From Longimicrobiales bacterium (GTDB taxonomy: Bacteria > Gemmatimonadota > Gemmatimonadetes > Longimicrobiales > Gaopeijiaceae): 64,000 bases of DNA. The stretch covers positions 1 to 64,000 of the forward strand of contig JAPKBW010000016.1 of NCBI GenBank assembly GCA_028823235.1, read 5' to 3'. Position numbers and translations under genes: made by a program. This document shows positions 966 through 10,962 of the stretch, one piece after another; position 1 is the stretch's first letter, and every line of letters begins with the position of its first letter. A model generated the notes under the pieces. It worked only from the letters and a program-made list of their open reading frames with translations, ran no database searches and was not told the origin of the DNA.

Positions 966-2272
966 TCCGGGCGCTTTCCGTAGCGGCGCCGACGGGGACG
1001 CGAACTCGTCTCGGCATCACCAGACTTCGCCTCGCCAACCTTCTTTTTCGCGGCCTTTTTGGCAGCGTTCTCACGTGCCTTCGCCCGCGTCGCACGGATC
1101 GCCTTAATGCGTTCTCCCCGCGGCACTTCGAGCGGAGCCTCGGCGGTCGCGCCGTACTCGAAGCCCTCGAGTCGGACTCTCTTGATCTTCGATCCAACCG
1201 CCTTCTCGATGCGATGGATCTGCCCTTCGTCCTCAGGCGTTACTAGCGTGAATGCCTCACCGAGCGCATCCGCGCGAGCCGTCCGGCCTACGCGATGGAT
1301 GTAGTCTTCGGGCACAGCTGGCACATCGAAGTTCACGACATGCCCAAGAGCCTCTACATCAATGCCTCGCGCGGCGATATCCGTCGCAACCAGCACTCGA
1401 AAATTTCCGGCCTTGAAGCCGGCGAGCGCCTTGGTGCGCTGCGCCTGCGAGCGGTTTCCATGGATTCGATCGGCCAGAATGCCATGGCGATTCAGGACCT
1501 TCGCCAGGCGGTCCGCGCGGTGCTTGGTACGCGTGAAGACCAGCGCCTCCTGAATCTGCCCTTTCAGAAACAACTCCGTCAGGAGCGCGCCTTTCAGTGA
1601 AGCCGGGACCGGGTACAAGGCCTGCGTAACACCCTTGGCCGGAGCGGCTTTCCGTTGGAGCGCGATCTTGATCGGCTTCCGCAGGATCTGCGCCGTGAGC
1701 TTTTCGATCGCTGGCGGCATGGTCGCGCTGAAGAAGAGCGTCTGCTTCGGCGTCGGGATGTGCTTGAGGATCCTCTTGATATCGGGCATGAAGCCCATAT
1801 CCAGCATGCGATCCGCTTCGTCCAGCACCAGAAATTCGAGTCCCGACAACGCAGCGTATCGGTACTGGAAGTGGTCCAGCAGGCGACCGGGGGTCGCGAT
1901 GATGAAGTCGGCACCCGTCCGGAAGGCCTTTTCCTGCGGGCCCATGCCTACACCACCATGTACCGCGGCTGCCTTTATACCCGTATGGGGCGCGAGCGCA
2001 TGGGCATCGGCAAGAATCTGGAGTGCCAGTTCGCGCGTGGGTGCGAGCACGAGCGCCCGAGTGGTCCCCCGCGGCTTGTCCATGAGTTGATGCAGAATGG
2101 GCAGGAGGAATGCAGCGGTCTTCCCACTTCCCGTCGCAGCACAGGCGAGAAGATCCCGGCCAGTGAGGGCCTGGGGGATCGCCTGTTCCTGAATGGGGGT
2201 TGGGCGTACGAAGCCCAGGTCCTCGACGCCTCTAAGAAGAGTCGGGTGCAAATTAAGTGCAGCAAAAGCCAC
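962..2272 (-). CDS. DEAD-box RNA helicase, RhlE-like
   Basis: ATP-dependent RNA helicase of 436 residues, likely acting in RNA remodelling, ribosome assembly or decay. All core motifs are visible in order: Q motif near residue 25, Walker A AATGSGKT at 46-53, APTREL near 77-82, TPGR near 127, DEAD at 151-154, SAT at 182-184, ARGID and HRVGRTAR in the second RecA domain. The C-terminal tail of about 60 residues is rich in Lys, Arg and Ala, as in RhlE-type proteins, and probably binds RNA. The start codon is GTG. The 3' end overlaps the convergent decarboxylase by 4 bp. Confidence 0.95.
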   Translation of the reverse strand: MAFAALNLHPTLLRGVEDLGFVRPTPIQEQAIPQALTGRDLLACAATGSGKTAAFLLPILHQLMDKPRGTTRALVLAPTRELALQILADAHALAPHTGIKAAAVHGGVGMGPQEKAFRTGADFIIATPGRLLDHFQYRYAALSGLEFLVLDEADRMLDMGFMPDIKRILKHIPTPKQTLFFSATMPPAIEKLTAQILRKPIKIALQRKAAPAKGVTQALYPVPASLKGALLTELFLKGQIQEALVFTRTKHRADRLAKVLNRHGILADRIHGNRSQAQRTKALAGFKAGNFRVLVATDIAARGIDVEALGHVVNFDVPAVPEDYIHRVGRTARADALGEAFTLVTPEDEGQIHRIEKAVGSKIKRVRLEGFEYGATAEAPLEVPRGERIKAIRATRAKARENAAKKAAKKKVGEAKSGDAETSSRPRRRRYGKRPD

Positions 2273-2436
2273 GATATGTCCGGTTGATGGCGCACAGGGG
2301 CCGGCCGGAACATCCGGCTCGATAAGCTGGCGCAGAGTTTGTGCGAGGGCACGCCTCCGGATTCGGAGGCTCTTAGGTGGGATCCCGCAGAGCAGAAGCT
2401 AGTGGAAAAGAGGTGACGGGTGTAAGAGGGGCACCG

Positions 2437-3840
2437 CTAGGCGTGCCCTGGGGCCACCTTCCGCGTTGGATCCGACTTCCACATGAGGTGACGGATCATG
2501 AGCCCTGATGTGATCGTCGCCGCGACCCCGCCTGAGAGGATCCCTATCCAGACGCCCTCGATCGACTGATCGAAGATGTTCACCTGAGCATAGGCCATCG
2601 GGACGCCGACGAGCAGAACGCGGAGCGTGGTAATGAAAAGCGCCGGGAAGCCATGACCCAGCCCCTGCAGTAGTCGACCCGTGGTCATCCCGATCGCCAT
2701 CATCGGGTAGACGAAGATCATGAAGCCCAAGTATGTCGTTCCGATGAGGATCGCCTCGGGGTCGTCGGTGAAGATCGGCAGGATCGCACCAGAACTCAGG
2801 AACGCGCCGGCTCCGATCACGGTCGCGAGCGTGATGGCCCAGCGGTAGGTATACAGAGACGTGGAGCGCACCAGATCCACTCGACCAGCACCAGCGAACA
2901 TCCCGACCACCGTGACCGCCGCCCCTGAGAGGCCGAAAATCGGCAGTACGACGATCATGTCCACCTTGGATGCGGCGCCGTAGGCCGCTACTGAGACAGA
3001 TCCGAAATCGGAGAGCAGAAGATTGTAAAGGATCGTCCCCACTGACATGACGAACATGCTGGCTGCGATGGGGACAGCCAGGCCGAGCAGAGGCTTCAAG
3101 ACCACGACGCGCGGTGTGAGCGCGGACACCCGCAGCTTCACGAACGCCTCTTTTCGACGCAGGAGCAGAACCGCAAACGAGGATGCCGAGATGACCACGG
3201 CAAGAACCGTTGCGTACGCCGCGCCTCTTAGCCCCAAACCAAAACCGAAAATAAACAGCGCATCGAGCCCAATATTCGAGATCGTCGAGACCATCAGTAC
3301 GATCATGGGCGTCTGCGCATCCCCTTCACCCGTCAGAACCGCTCTCAGCACAGACGAAACGAAGAACAGCGGCATAAAGAGGGCGAGCACCCGGAAATAC
3401 TCCCAGCCCAGTCGAGCGACATCTCCCTCAGCCCCCAGCAGCGTCAGCATACGGGGGCCCGCAAGCAGGCCTGCGACACCAACCACCAGGCCGAGCAGAA
3501 GTCCCGCACTGATCGCAGTTCCGGCAACCGCATCGGCGCTCTCGGCATCCCCTCGACCGACGGCCTGAGCCACCATCGCAGTAACCGCAGTTCCCAGGCC
3601 CATCGTCAGGGCCATCACCAGGAAGAACAGTGGAGCAACGAAGGTGGCCGCCGCGAGCGCGTCCGTACCGAGGGTGCCGATGAAGGCCGTGTCCGCAACC
3701 ACGTACATGGTGTGCACGGTCATGCCTGCGATCATGGGCAGAGCCATGATCCAGAGTGCTCGCCGCGGGTTCCCCAGAAACTCGTCCAAGCGATCTGTGC
3801 GACCACCCTTTTCGGGGGTCGCCATGGTCGATTTAGACAT
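2437..3840 (-). CDS. MATE-family multidrug/Na+ antiporter
   Basis: Polytopic inner-membrane exporter with about 12 hydrophobic segments, typical of MATE proteins that expel cationic compounds in exchange for Na+ or H+. The region around WIMALPMIAGMTVHTMYVVAD matches the first helix and loop of the NorM/DinF type. I start it at the ATG at 3840 (protein begins MSKSTMATPEK), giving 467 residues. A longer reading from the ATG at 3888 adds a non-family leader, and neither start has a good Shine-Dalgarno site. A weak 6-bp inverted repeat (GGGCAC/GTGCCC) overlaps the stop near 2432-2450. The substrate is unknown. Confidence 0.88.
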   Translation of the reverse strand: MSKSTMATPEKGGRTDRLDEFLGNPRRALWIMALPMIAGMTVHTMYVVADTAFIGTLGTDALAAATFVAPLFFLVMALTMGLGTAVTAMVAQAVGRGDAESADAVAGTAISAGLLLGLVVGVAGLLAGPRMLTLLGAEGDVARLGWEYFRVLALFMPLFFVSSVLRAVLTGEGDAQTPMIVLMVSTISNIGLDALFIFGFGLGLRGAAYATVLAVVISASSFAVLLLRRKEAFVKLRVSALTPRVVVLKPLLGLAVPIAASMFVMSVGTILYNLLLSDFGSVSVAAYGAASKVDMIVVLPIFGLSGAAVTVVGMFAGAGRVDLVRSTSLYTYRWAITLATVIGAGAFLSSGAILPIFTDDPEAILIGTTYLGFMIFVYPMMAIGMTTGRLLQGLGHGFPALFITTLRVLLVGVPMAYAQVNIFDQSIEGVWIGILSGGVAATITSGLMIRHLMWKSDPTRKVAPGHA

Positions 3841-6764: not shown

Positions 6765-7232
6765 CTACCCTGCTTGCTCGAGTTCGTACTCCGTCGTGAT
6801 CTCGATCGCGCTCTTCAGCGTCTTGTAGACCGGACACCGGTCCGCGTGCATCGCATGCACTCGCTCGACCGTCTCCCGATGCTCCTCATCGGCCTTCAGT
6901 TTGTATGTGACGTGGATGCGACGGATCACCAGGATACCATCGTCCTTTCCGACCTCTCCACGTACATATCCGCTGAGGTAGCCTTCTCCAGCACTGATCC
7001 CGCGCGCCTCCAGCGCGCCTCCGAAGGTTCCGGTCAGTCAGCCGCCGGTCGACGCCATGACATAGTCGAGCGTCGTAGTGATTTCACGGTCGGGATCGGC
7101 ACCATAGTGCTCCTTGATCGCGCCGTGAACGCCGAACTCGACCGGGCCATCGTGGGCCGGGAGATAGGCGCGTCGGAAAGTTCCTGTGATCCGGTCGATC
7201 CGGATGTCGGCCGTGTACACGGTATCTAACAT
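6765..7232 (-). CDS. OsmC-family protein, probable selenoprotein (TGA = Sec65)
   Basis: OsmC/Ohr-fold proteins detoxify peroxides with a peroxidatic and a resolving Cys. Read from the ATG at 7232 (AGGAG 4 bases upstream at 7237-7241), the frame gives 64 residues ending DYVMASTGG, one TGA at 7038-7040, then 90 more residues without a frameshift (LTGTFGGALEARGI ... DRCPVYKTL ... YELEQAG) to a TAG at 6765-6767. The total of 155 residues is the usual family length. The TGA falls exactly where the family has its catalytic Cys; the second conserved Cys is kept at residue 133. A hairpin at SECIS distance follows the TGA. I read it as selenocysteine; a stop-mutated pseudogene or a sequencing error is the alternative. 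Standard gene callers would report only a fragment of about 64-68 residues. Confidence 0.78.
7002..7018 (-). promoter_or_regulatory. Candidate bacterial SECIS hairpin
   Basis: On the minus strand the 6-bp all-GC stem GCGCGC / GCGCGC closes a 5-base loop UGGAG. The apical loop begins 26 nt after the TGA at 7038-7040 and has G at its second position. Known bacterial SECIS elements need a stem-loop with its apical loop roughly 16-37 nt past the UGA and a G in the first two loop bases, so this fits. It lies inside the reading frame (codons for GALEAR), as bacterial elements do. Confidence 0.65.
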
Positions 7233-7467
7233 GGGACTCCTCATGAAATGGACGCCGATGGTAAGGCGATTCCACTCCAGCGGAAAGACGAACCAGCGAA
7301 AGACCTCAAGATTATTGCATTCCCCAAGTCTTCGGCTTATCTTCGGTGTCCGCGTTCCAGCAGGGAGCGAGGGGCTCGAGTGGCCGCCTTCGGGGTGGCC
7401 CAGGCGTGTTCACGGCACGTCCCGGGATCGGATGAGGACGTGATGCGCGGGCCGAAACACCACCACG

Positions 7468-10400
7468 ATGACGATTCCCTACGTCGAGCTGCACTGCCAT
7501 TCAGGATTCTCTTTCCTGGACGGCGCGTCCCACCCGGAAGAGCTCGTCATGCGGGCCGTCGAGCTGGGCTACCCGGCCCTCGCACTGACTGACCACAATG
7601 GCCTGTACGGCTCAATGGAGTTCGCCCAGGCCGCCCGACAGGCGAAACTGCAGCCGATCACCGGCGCCGAAGTCACATTGCGCGAATGCTTTACAGGTGT
7701 CGACGAGCCCGAGGGCGGGCATCATGTCACACTGCTCGCTGAAACCCCACAAGGCTACGCGAACCTCTGTCGCCTCCTGACCGAAACGCACATGCACTCG
7801 GAGCGGGGTGATGCCCGGCTCCCACTGGAGTCCCTCCTCCGCCTCCCGGAAGGGCTGATTCTCCTCACCGGATGCCTAAAAAGCCCTGTTGCCGCTGCAC
7901 TCGACTCATCCGTAGCCGACGCGGAGGCGTTCACGAGTAGACTGATCTCAGCGTTCGGACCCGGAAACGTCTTCATGGAGTTGCAGGACAACGCAGTGAA
8001 AGGCGACAGAGCCCGAAACAAGGGCCTGGGGCGGCTCGCAGGGCGCATGGGCCTTGGTGTGGTCGCCACGGGGAACGTGCACTACCACCGCCCCGAGCGG
8101 CATCGCCTGCAGGACGTGCTCGTTTCGATCCGTAGCCGGGCCACATTAGACGGCGCACACGGCGCCAGAAGGGCCAACCGACTCTTTCACCTCCCCGACG
8201 CCTGGGAGATGCACCATCGCTTCCAGAGCCGTCCTGAGGCAGTCACGAACACGCTCCTGATCGCCGAACGGTGCGCACAATTCGATCTGACCGAGGACCT
8301 AGGCTACGAATTTCCTGATTTCGCTGGGTCAGAGCGCGGCGGGGGCATCGAATCGCTCGCTGCCATGTGCCTCGGCAAGATCAGCCAGCTCTACGAGCCG
8401 GGAAGCGAAGAGGAGCGCGATGCCGAAGAGCGGCTTCACACCGAATTGTGCCTCGTCGACCTGCATGGCCTCGCCGGGTTCTTCCTGGTCTACCGTGACA
8501 TCATGAAGCTGGCCGGCGAAGTCGCTCGGGAAGTACGCGGAGAGGCGCCCCGGGCCAGTTCCGGGCTGCCGGCCGGACGCGGACGTGGATCATCCGTTTC
8601 CTCGATCATCTGCTATCTGATCGGCCTGTCCCATATCGACCCGGTCAAGAACAATCTCTTCCTCGGTCGCTTCCTGAACGAAGCACTGCGCAGCGTCCCG
8701 GACATTGATCTCGATTTCCCAAGGGACATAAGAGAAAAGTTGATTTTACGCGTGTATAACAAGTACGGACATGAACATACGGGACTCGTCTGTACTTTCC
8801 CAACGTACCGACTGAAGTCTGCAGTGCGTGAGATCGGCAAGGTCCTGGACCTCCCCCTCGGCGAGTTGGAGAAGCTTTCGAAGCTCGCCGAACACCGTTC
8901 CGCATCAGGGCTCGCGGACGAGATCGCTTCCCTGCCGGAGTTCAAGGACCGGGCCGATGGCCACCTCTGGAAACTGCTCGGAGAGCTGGCCGAAGACGTG
9001 TCCGGACTTCCACGTCACATTTCGCAGCACGTCGGCGGCATGATCATCTCGAGTCGCCCCTTGGTCGAAATCGTCCCACTCGAGCCGGCCGCCTGGGAGG
9101 GCCGCGTCCTATGTCAGTGGGACAAGGATTCGTGCGAGGACGCCGGCTTTATCAAAATCGACTTCCTGGCCCTCGGAATGCTGTCCTTGGTCGAGGAAAG
9201 CATCGATCTGATTGCCGAGCGGCACGGGGAAGCTCCCGATCTCTCCCGAATCGACTTCGAGGACGAGGTCATTTACGACCGGATCTGCTCCGGGGACACG
9301 GTGGGGCTCTTCCAGATCGAAAGTCGGGCTCAGATCCAGATGCTCCGGCGCACGCGACCCCGAAACCTCGACGATCTTTTCGTTCAGGTCGCGATCGTGC
9401 GCCCGGGGCCAATCGTCGGCGGCGCGGTGAACCCCTATGTGCGCCGTCGAGAGATGCTGCGCGAGAACCCAGACTACGAGGTCCCCTACCCCCATCCGCT
9501 CCTCGAGGAGGCTCTGGGAGAGACGCTGGGGGTGATCATCTTCCAGGATCAGGTCCTAAAGGTCTGTCAGGCCCTCGCGAACTTCTCCGACGGCCAGGCG
9601 GAGTCCCTGCGGCGTGCCATGAGCCGGAAACGCTCCAGAGAGGCCCTGACGGCCCACTGGGATGACTTCAGGGAAGGAGCCATGGCCAACGGCATCGACA
9701 AGACCACGGCCCGGGAGATCTTCACACAAGTCACCGCGTTCTCGGAATTCGGCTTCCCGAAATCACACGCCGCAGCCTTCGGCCTGCTGGCGTATCAATC
9801 GGCCTGGATGCGGCACTACTACCCAATTGAGTTCTATGTGGGGCTGTTCAACAACCAGCCCATGGGCTTCTACTCGCTCGATACTCTAGGCCGAGACGCC
9901 CGCAGGAACGGAATCAGAACCCTTCTGCCCGACGTAAACCACAGCGGCGTCGAATGCACGGCCGAGGGTGACGACCTGCGCGTGGGCCTAGGGTTCTTGC
10001 GAGGCTGGGGTTCAGAAGTCGCCGAGCGGGTCGTCAACGAACGCCTGAACAATGGTCCGTACCGGTCGATCGTCGAATTCCTGCGACGCACCCCTGCCGC
10101 ACTCAAGCGTCCTGCCATCGAAAACCTGATCTGGGTCGGTGGATTCGGTGATTTTGGCCTTACCCGACGGGAATTGCTCTGGCAGGCCGGGCTCTGGCTC
10201 GGCCCGGAGACAGACGGCGACAGCAGCGGTGGCCGCGAAGACCATGCACAAACCGAACTGGCGCTCGACGACCCCTACGCAGGCATGGCGTTTCCGGACC
10301 TTGGGGAGCACGACCAGATGATTGCGGAATACCGCATGCTCCAATTCTCTGCGAACCTGCATCCGCTCACACTGCTACAGCACGCGCTGCCGGAGGAGAC

Positions 10401-10962
10401 TGTCGGTTCAGACCGCCTTCCGCACCTCGAACAGGGCAGTACCGTGCGCGTCGCAGGCTTGGTCACGACACGACAGCGACCGGGAACGGCAAGGGGCTAT
10501 GTCTTTGTCCTAATAGAAGATGAGTACGGTCCCATCAACGTAATTGTGAAGCCAGACATCTATAAGCGTGACCAATCGTCTGTACGCATGGAGCCGTTCC
10601 TCACTGTACGCGGGCGCCTTCAGAAAGACGGTGACACACTCAACGTGATTGCCTTCGAGGTCGAAGCACTGATAGTGCCCGGGACTCCGGTTCGGAGACG
10701 AGGTATGTCCAGGTCCTACCCGGACGGTCGCCGGCCGGAAACAGCTGCCGTGCGAGAACTCGCCTCGCCAGATGATGCAGACACCCAGACAGACTCGACC
10801 GAGGGCCCCATGGCTCCCACTAGGGACAGCACCTCACTCCACACGTCCCTGCCCGAGCCACTCGAAACGTGGGCGGATCGGGACGAGAAGCCTGTCACCA
10901 ACCCATACCAGTACCTCACCGCCTTGCGACAGAGCCCGCCAGGCATCAAGAGTTTCGGCTGA
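7468..10962 (+). CDS. dnaE2: Error-prone DNA polymerase III alpha subunit DnaE2 (ImuC)
   Basis: C-family polymerase of 1164 residues, used for translesion synthesis after DNA damage. The N-terminal PHP domain opens with YVELHCHSGFSFLDGASH (His9 and His11), the start typical of DnaE2 rather than replicative DnaE1. Catalytic aspartates lie in PDIDLDFPRD (Asp412, Asp414, Asp416). The helix-hairpin-helix/OB part carries GLVTTRQRPGTARG near residue 1000, another DnaE2 mark. About 80 extra residues after the OB fold are low-complexity and unlike the family. An in-frame TGA at 7441 rules out a longer 5' end. The usual partners imuA and imuB and a clear LexA box are not seen next to it. Confidence 0.93.
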   Translation: MTIPYVELHCHSGFSFLDGASHPEELVMRAVELGYPALALTDHNGLYGSMEFAQAARQAKLQPITGAEVTLRECFTGVDEPEGGHHVTLLAETPQGYANLCRLLTETHMHSERGDARLPLESLLRLPEGLILLTGCLKSPVAAALDSSVADAEAFTSRLISAFGPGNVFMELQDNAVKGDRARNKGLGRLAGRMGLGVVATGNVHYHRPERHRLQDVLVSIRSRATLDGAHGARRANRLFHLPDAWEMHHRFQSRPEAVTNTLLIAERCAQFDLTEDLGYEFPDFAGSERGGGIESLAAMCLGKISQLYEPGSEEERDAEERLHTELCLVDLHGLAGFFLVYRDIMKLAGEVAREVRGEAPRASSGLPAGRGRGSSVSSIICYLIGLSHIDPVKNNLFLGRFLNEALRSVPDIDLDFPRDIREKLILRVYNKYGHEHTGLVCTFPTYRLKSAVREIGKVLDLPLGELEKLSKLAEHRSASGLADEIASLPEFKDRADGHLWKLLGELAEDVSGLPRHISQHVGGMIISSRPLVEIVPLEPAAWEGRVLCQWDKDSCEDAGFIKIDFLALGMLSLVEESIDLIAERHGEAPDLSRIDFEDEVIYDRICSGDTVGLFQIESRAQIQMLRRTRPRNLDDLFVQVAIVRPGPIVGGAVNPYVRRREMLRENPDYEVPYPHPLLEEALGETLGVIIFQDQVLKVCQALANFSDGQAESLRRAMSRKRSREALTAHWDDFREGAMANGIDKTTAREIFTQVTAFSEFGFPKSHAAAFGLLAYQSAWMRHYYPIEFYVGLFNNQPMGFYSLDTLGRDARRNGIRTLLPDVNHSGVECTAEGDDLRVGLGFLRGWGSEVAERVVNERLNNGPYRSIVEFLRRTPAALKRPAIENLIWVGGFGDFGLTRRELLWQAGLWLGPETDGDSSGGREDHAQTELALDDPYAGMAFPDLGEHDQMIAEYRMLQFSANLHPLTLLQHALPEETVGSDRLPHLEQGSTVRVAGLVTTRQRPGTARGYVFVLIEDEYGPINVIVKPDIYKRDQSSVRMEPFLTVRGRLQKDGDTLNVIAFEVEALIVPGTPVRRRGMSRSYPDGRRPETAAVRELASPDDADTQTDSTEGPMAPTRDSTSLHTSLPEPLETWADRDEKPVTNPYQYLTALRQSPPGIKSFG

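Follow-up and report, generated by a model that had tools for sequence, protein, structure and literature searches.

An OsmC-family gene with an in-frame TGA

The minus strand of the window, which is the whole 64,000-nt stretch of Longimicrobiales DNA analyzed here, carries at positions 6765–7232 an OsmC-family gene for a predicted selenoprotein of 155 residues, delineated by a profile match, homologues and an AF2 model. Its frame opens with ATG and runs through 64 sense codons, a TGA as codon 65 (7038–7040) and a further 90 sense codons to a TAG stop (6765–6767). Directly 5' of the ATG, we read a putative AGGAG-type ribosome-binding site (ATGAGGAGTCCC-ATG) at 7236–7244 of the same strand. When the TGA was read through, the protein matched the Pfam profile PF02566 with an E-value of 2e-14 and 54.3 bits, against a gathering cut-off of 27.5. 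Codon 65, the putative Sec65 codon, lies in a GG-U-LxGT motif and falls in the catalytic Cys column of the solved OsmC/Ohr proteins. The invariant second Cys, Cys133, is encoded by TGT at 6834–6836 (minus strand) in a CPV/CPT motif and aligns with their resolving Cys. A profile alignment placed U65 and C133 opposite both Cys residues of 1ukk, and both positions are conserved across the subfamily. An earlier sequence-only reading had proposed a single TGA inside an otherwise intact OsmC frame, situated at the catalytic Cys of the family, with the second conserved Cys (DRCPVYKTL) undamaged; its description and coordinates were borne out.

Within the genus, dN/dS was about 0.07 before the TGA and 0.17 after it, indicating that the downstream part is also under purifying selection. 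The sequence-only reading depended on a Sec system in the same genome, and every component was found: the source genome, a draft of 3.14 Mb that is 97% complete, encodes selA (7e-155), selB (7e-97), selD (6e-116) and a tRNA-Sec with a UCA anticodon. The selD gene (1288–2526, plus strand, of the contig C10 interval 119445–122338) has an in-frame TGA of its own, which yields GAGUACK, a Sec form already known for SelD.

A gene for an error-prone polymerase, named dnaE2-like by sequence reading, adjoins the selenoprotein gene divergently (7468–10962 of the window, plus strand). This adjacency, sometimes with an FBA-like gene, recurs in related genera only and is absent in more distant holders; comparison of neighborhoods across holders gave no clue to function.

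A hairpin downstream of the UGA

A SECIS-type hairpin, GCGCGC-UGGAG-GCGCGC, lies at 7002–7018 on the minus strand, with its loop at 7008–7012. The 6-bp stem starts 19 nt past the UGA and the loop 25 nt past it, in agreement with the hairpin with a G-containing loop that had been noted about 20 nt downstream. As in bacterial SECIS elements, the hairpin stands just past the UGA and has a small G-containing apical loop, and it is a predicted SelB site.

The hairpin proved to be conserved across genomes, with compensatory changes in two clades. At least five of the six stem pairs are kept in 100 of 106 non-redundant Sec genes; across these 106 genes, standard pairs made up 97% of cells, compared with 4–73% in slid versions of the stem, where the high values at slides of ±2 reflect the alternation of G and C along the stem. 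One Gemmatimonadota clade has the stem GCGUGC/GCACGC, in which one arm has an Ala-to-Val replacement and the other a matching synonymous change in an Ala codon. The stem of a second OsmC gene, paralogue B (see below), is the mirror image, GCGCAC/GUGCGC. Synonymous difference within the genus was 0.025 in codons 70–76 and 0.63 after the hairpin, that is, 25-fold lower in the former, and the hairpin is absent from all five Cys homologues.

The proposed fold check of the region was unexceptional: the single-sequence fold was no better than that of shuffles (z = 0.40), and synonymous-recoding nulls gave a modest mean z of −1.3. Because these folding z-scores are weak, the case for a SECIS rests on covariation and on suppressed synonymous change. 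The exact hairpin is missing in about six non-redundant genes, from some Geobacterales and Actinomycetota. Nine Sec copies from Geobacterales and some Actinomycetota are without the standard stem, and, judging from their sequences, these altered-stem genes seem to use an alternative hairpin nearer the UGA.

Sec and Cys forms across genomes

The same taxonomic family is represented by 121 genomes, 85 of which have the OsmC selenoprotein, and TGA was present in every strong family match spanning the site; one more match, the 86th, scores weakly as OsmC and contains no stop. The protein and selA occurred together in 80 of these genomes, the protein alone in 5 (all 63–89% complete), selA alone in 12 and neither in 24, a co-occurrence with a Fisher p of 6e-12, uncorrected for shared ancestry. 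Many family genomes also contain paralogue B, which is 36–40% identical and has TGA at the same column. In the source genome, the paralogue B match, 36% identical, lies at 9104–9547 (minus strand) of contig C10, within the interval 8100–10600.

We then consider relatives at larger distances. Screening 85,000 species genomes gave 160 relatives; the screen used two peptide patterns, one with Cys spelled out at the site and one lying outside it, and was therefore unbiased against Cys forms. In the best 80 of the 160, the site codon was TGA in 78 and TGT (Cys) in 2, and these 80 come from about seven phyla or comparable groups: Gemmatimonadota, Acidobacteriota, Actinomycetota, Desulfuromonadia, Chloroflexi, Calditrichota and KSB1. 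Most relatives are metagenome-assembled genomes, but four are isolates (Geobacter argillaceus, Haloechinothrix halophila, H. aidingensis and Rubrobacter taiwanensis). All 13 spot-checked Sec-gene genomes from other groups, isolates included, have selA, as does one of the two tested genomes with a Cys gene. The plasmid and viral collections yielded no relatives. In the non-redundant set, all 106 Sec genes have TGA and the Cys homologues TGT at this position; a check of the homologue column, also proposed from the sequence, thus found only U or C.

In a single draft genome, a lone in-frame stop would suggest an OsmC gene broken by a nonsense mutation, or an assembly or sequencing error. However, the codon is TGA in the 85 family genomes and in 78 of the best 80 relatives, and purifying selection persists beyond it. 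Since the same TGA occurs in more than 100 other genomes, chance and sequencing error are excluded; the TGA in independent genomes refutes the pseudogene or error reading, and we assign a broken gene a negligible probability. It is also very improbable that a suppressor tRNA reads the UGA as Cys or Trp, or that UGA is generally reassigned, instead of being read as Sec. The column is Cys in homologues that do not use UGA, so insertion of Cys would likewise give a functional protein, but genomes of the same group use UGA as a normal stop, and several orthologues there end in TGA. Moreover, the genome has a complete Sec system, whose occurrence tracks that of the gene, and the hairpin past the UGA shows conservation with covariation but is gone from the Cys forms.

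A further reading takes the UGA mainly as a regulated stop, which at low selenium would give a 64-residue product or an unproductive mRNA, with readthrough acting as the switch. Any selenoprotein gene is truncated without selenium, and the second paralogue could allow specialization; by contrast, the N-terminal piece includes neither the second Cys nor the greater part of the fold, and conservation spans the whole protein. We consider such a switch very unlikely as the main role of the codon. Comparative support for Sec decoding of UGA65 is strong, and it is almost certain that the codon specifies selenocysteine at the OsmC active site. We put at about 95% the probability that the gene encodes an OsmC/Ohr-fold thiol peroxidase whose UGA65 is decoded as Sec by SelB and tRNA-Sec with guidance from the predicted hairpin.

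A quick maximum-likelihood tree shows a single change of the Sec/Cys label. All five Cys proteins are from Desulfuromonadales/Geobacterales and group in one supported clade beside the Geobacterales Sec proteins, nested among Sec proteins, suggesting a change from Sec to Cys; the root of the tree is uncertain because the outgroup is very distant. A Sec-to-Cys direction in this clade is thus likely, though not proven, and Sec is the usual and probably the original state of the subfamily. A selB gene scored over the cut-off in three of the five Cys genomes, and in the other two none did, which means that Sec can be lost from this gene without prior loss of the Sec system. On balance, we favor the combined history in which Sec is original and usual, the subfamily extends over about seven phyla and was duplicated in Gemmatimonadota, Cys arose secondarily in one lineage, and the whole has been largely overlooked. 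With a Sec clade, a nested Cys clade and cultured Sec strains (Geobacter argillaceus, Haloechinothrix and Rubrobacter) at hand, the retention of Sec in a peroxidase becomes directly testable.

Proposed chemistry and relation to known families

The AF2 model of the Sec OsmC protein had a pLDDT of 93.7, and its structure matches included 2onf (Z 15.1), E. coli OsmC 1nye (Z 12.9) and 1n2f, within the range Z 12.9–15.1. The protein has in common with E. coli OsmC (1nye) and Ohr (1n2f and 1ukk) the fold, the spacing of 68 residues between the redox positions and the CPV motif of the second Cys. It differs from these peroxidases in its sequence, with about 10–17% identity, in an N-terminal region bearing an FGVHG motif, where the N-terminal half departs from the Ohr/OsmC subfamily models, and in the presumed use of a selenolate instead of a thiolate. 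YhfA-type OsmC-like proteins (1ml8, COG1765) also have this fold (Z 14.3), but are Cys enzymes of low sequence identity to the Sec OsmC protein.

OsmC/Ohr enzymes use one peroxidatic and one resolving Cys. In the proposed scheme, SelB and tRNA-Sec would decode UGA65 under the guidance of the hairpin 19–36 nt downstream. By analogy with this Cys-type family, from which we infer the peroxidase chemistry, the Sec65 selenolate, as the peroxidatic residue, would likely attack the hydroperoxide. The resulting selenenic acid would react with Cys133, as the resolving residue, to form a selenenyl-sulfide, and a dithiol reductant would reset the enzyme. Two such selenoproteins per genome would make defense against organic peroxides selenium-dependent in many soil and marine Gemmatimonadota and Acidobacteriota.

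Selenoproteins of the OsmC-like type have been described before (PMC1088965, PMC2398784, PMC9312934, PMC13188914), and the remark in the sequence-only reading that marine surveys had reported them holds for the Sargasso Sea in 2005 (PMC1088965) and GOS in 2008 (PMC2398784). Like the protein described here, the known type combines an OsmC fold with a UGA-encoded Sec in place of the catalytic Cys and a hairpin resembling a SECIS; MBR72571.1 and MCS5647933.1 are cited as examples of it. The reported family, however, has the motif UxxT and mostly Cys homologues, with three Sec and ten Cys OsmC-like proteins in the Sargasso set and no Sec and 17 Cys proteins in the complete genomes of 2005 (PMC1088965), whereas the subfamily here has ULxGT and is nearly all Sec. 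The NCBIfam models gave no match to the Sec OsmC protein at the default E-value; in a loose search, NF041052 (OsmC_like_Se) scored 17.4 bits here and 39 bits for paralogue B, against a cut-off of 95, and it passed this cut-off in none of 149 genomes of the class. These scores argue for a separate, Sec-dominated branch of the known kind, set apart from NF041052 by score and from the 2005 family by the reported motif and the Sec/Cys counts. The OsmC model TIGR03562 likewise gave 17.7 bits, against a cut-off of 85.8. The open-access papers searched do not mention OsmC selenoproteins from either Gemmatimonadota or Acidobacteriota. Set against the sources consulted, the subfamily seems novel, as do its wide distribution, its almost exclusive use of Sec and the conserved hairpin.

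Standard public annotation models miss this OsmC branch, and ordinary annotation would split each such gene in two. The main bacterial selenoprotein finders rely on Cys/TGA pairs: the search of PMC1088965 demanded at least two Cys homologues, and deep-Sep (PMC12013277) admits a new candidate only if a Sec homologue is already known or if two or more of the top ten hits have Cys. Since the family is nearly all Sec, it falls into a blind spot of pipelines based on Cys homologues. Four genomes of other Gemmatimonadota contain a further OsmC-like family with TGA at the catalytic position, in the motif GA/SU(T/M)SMTIALYAR, which scores about 39–50 bits to NF041052.
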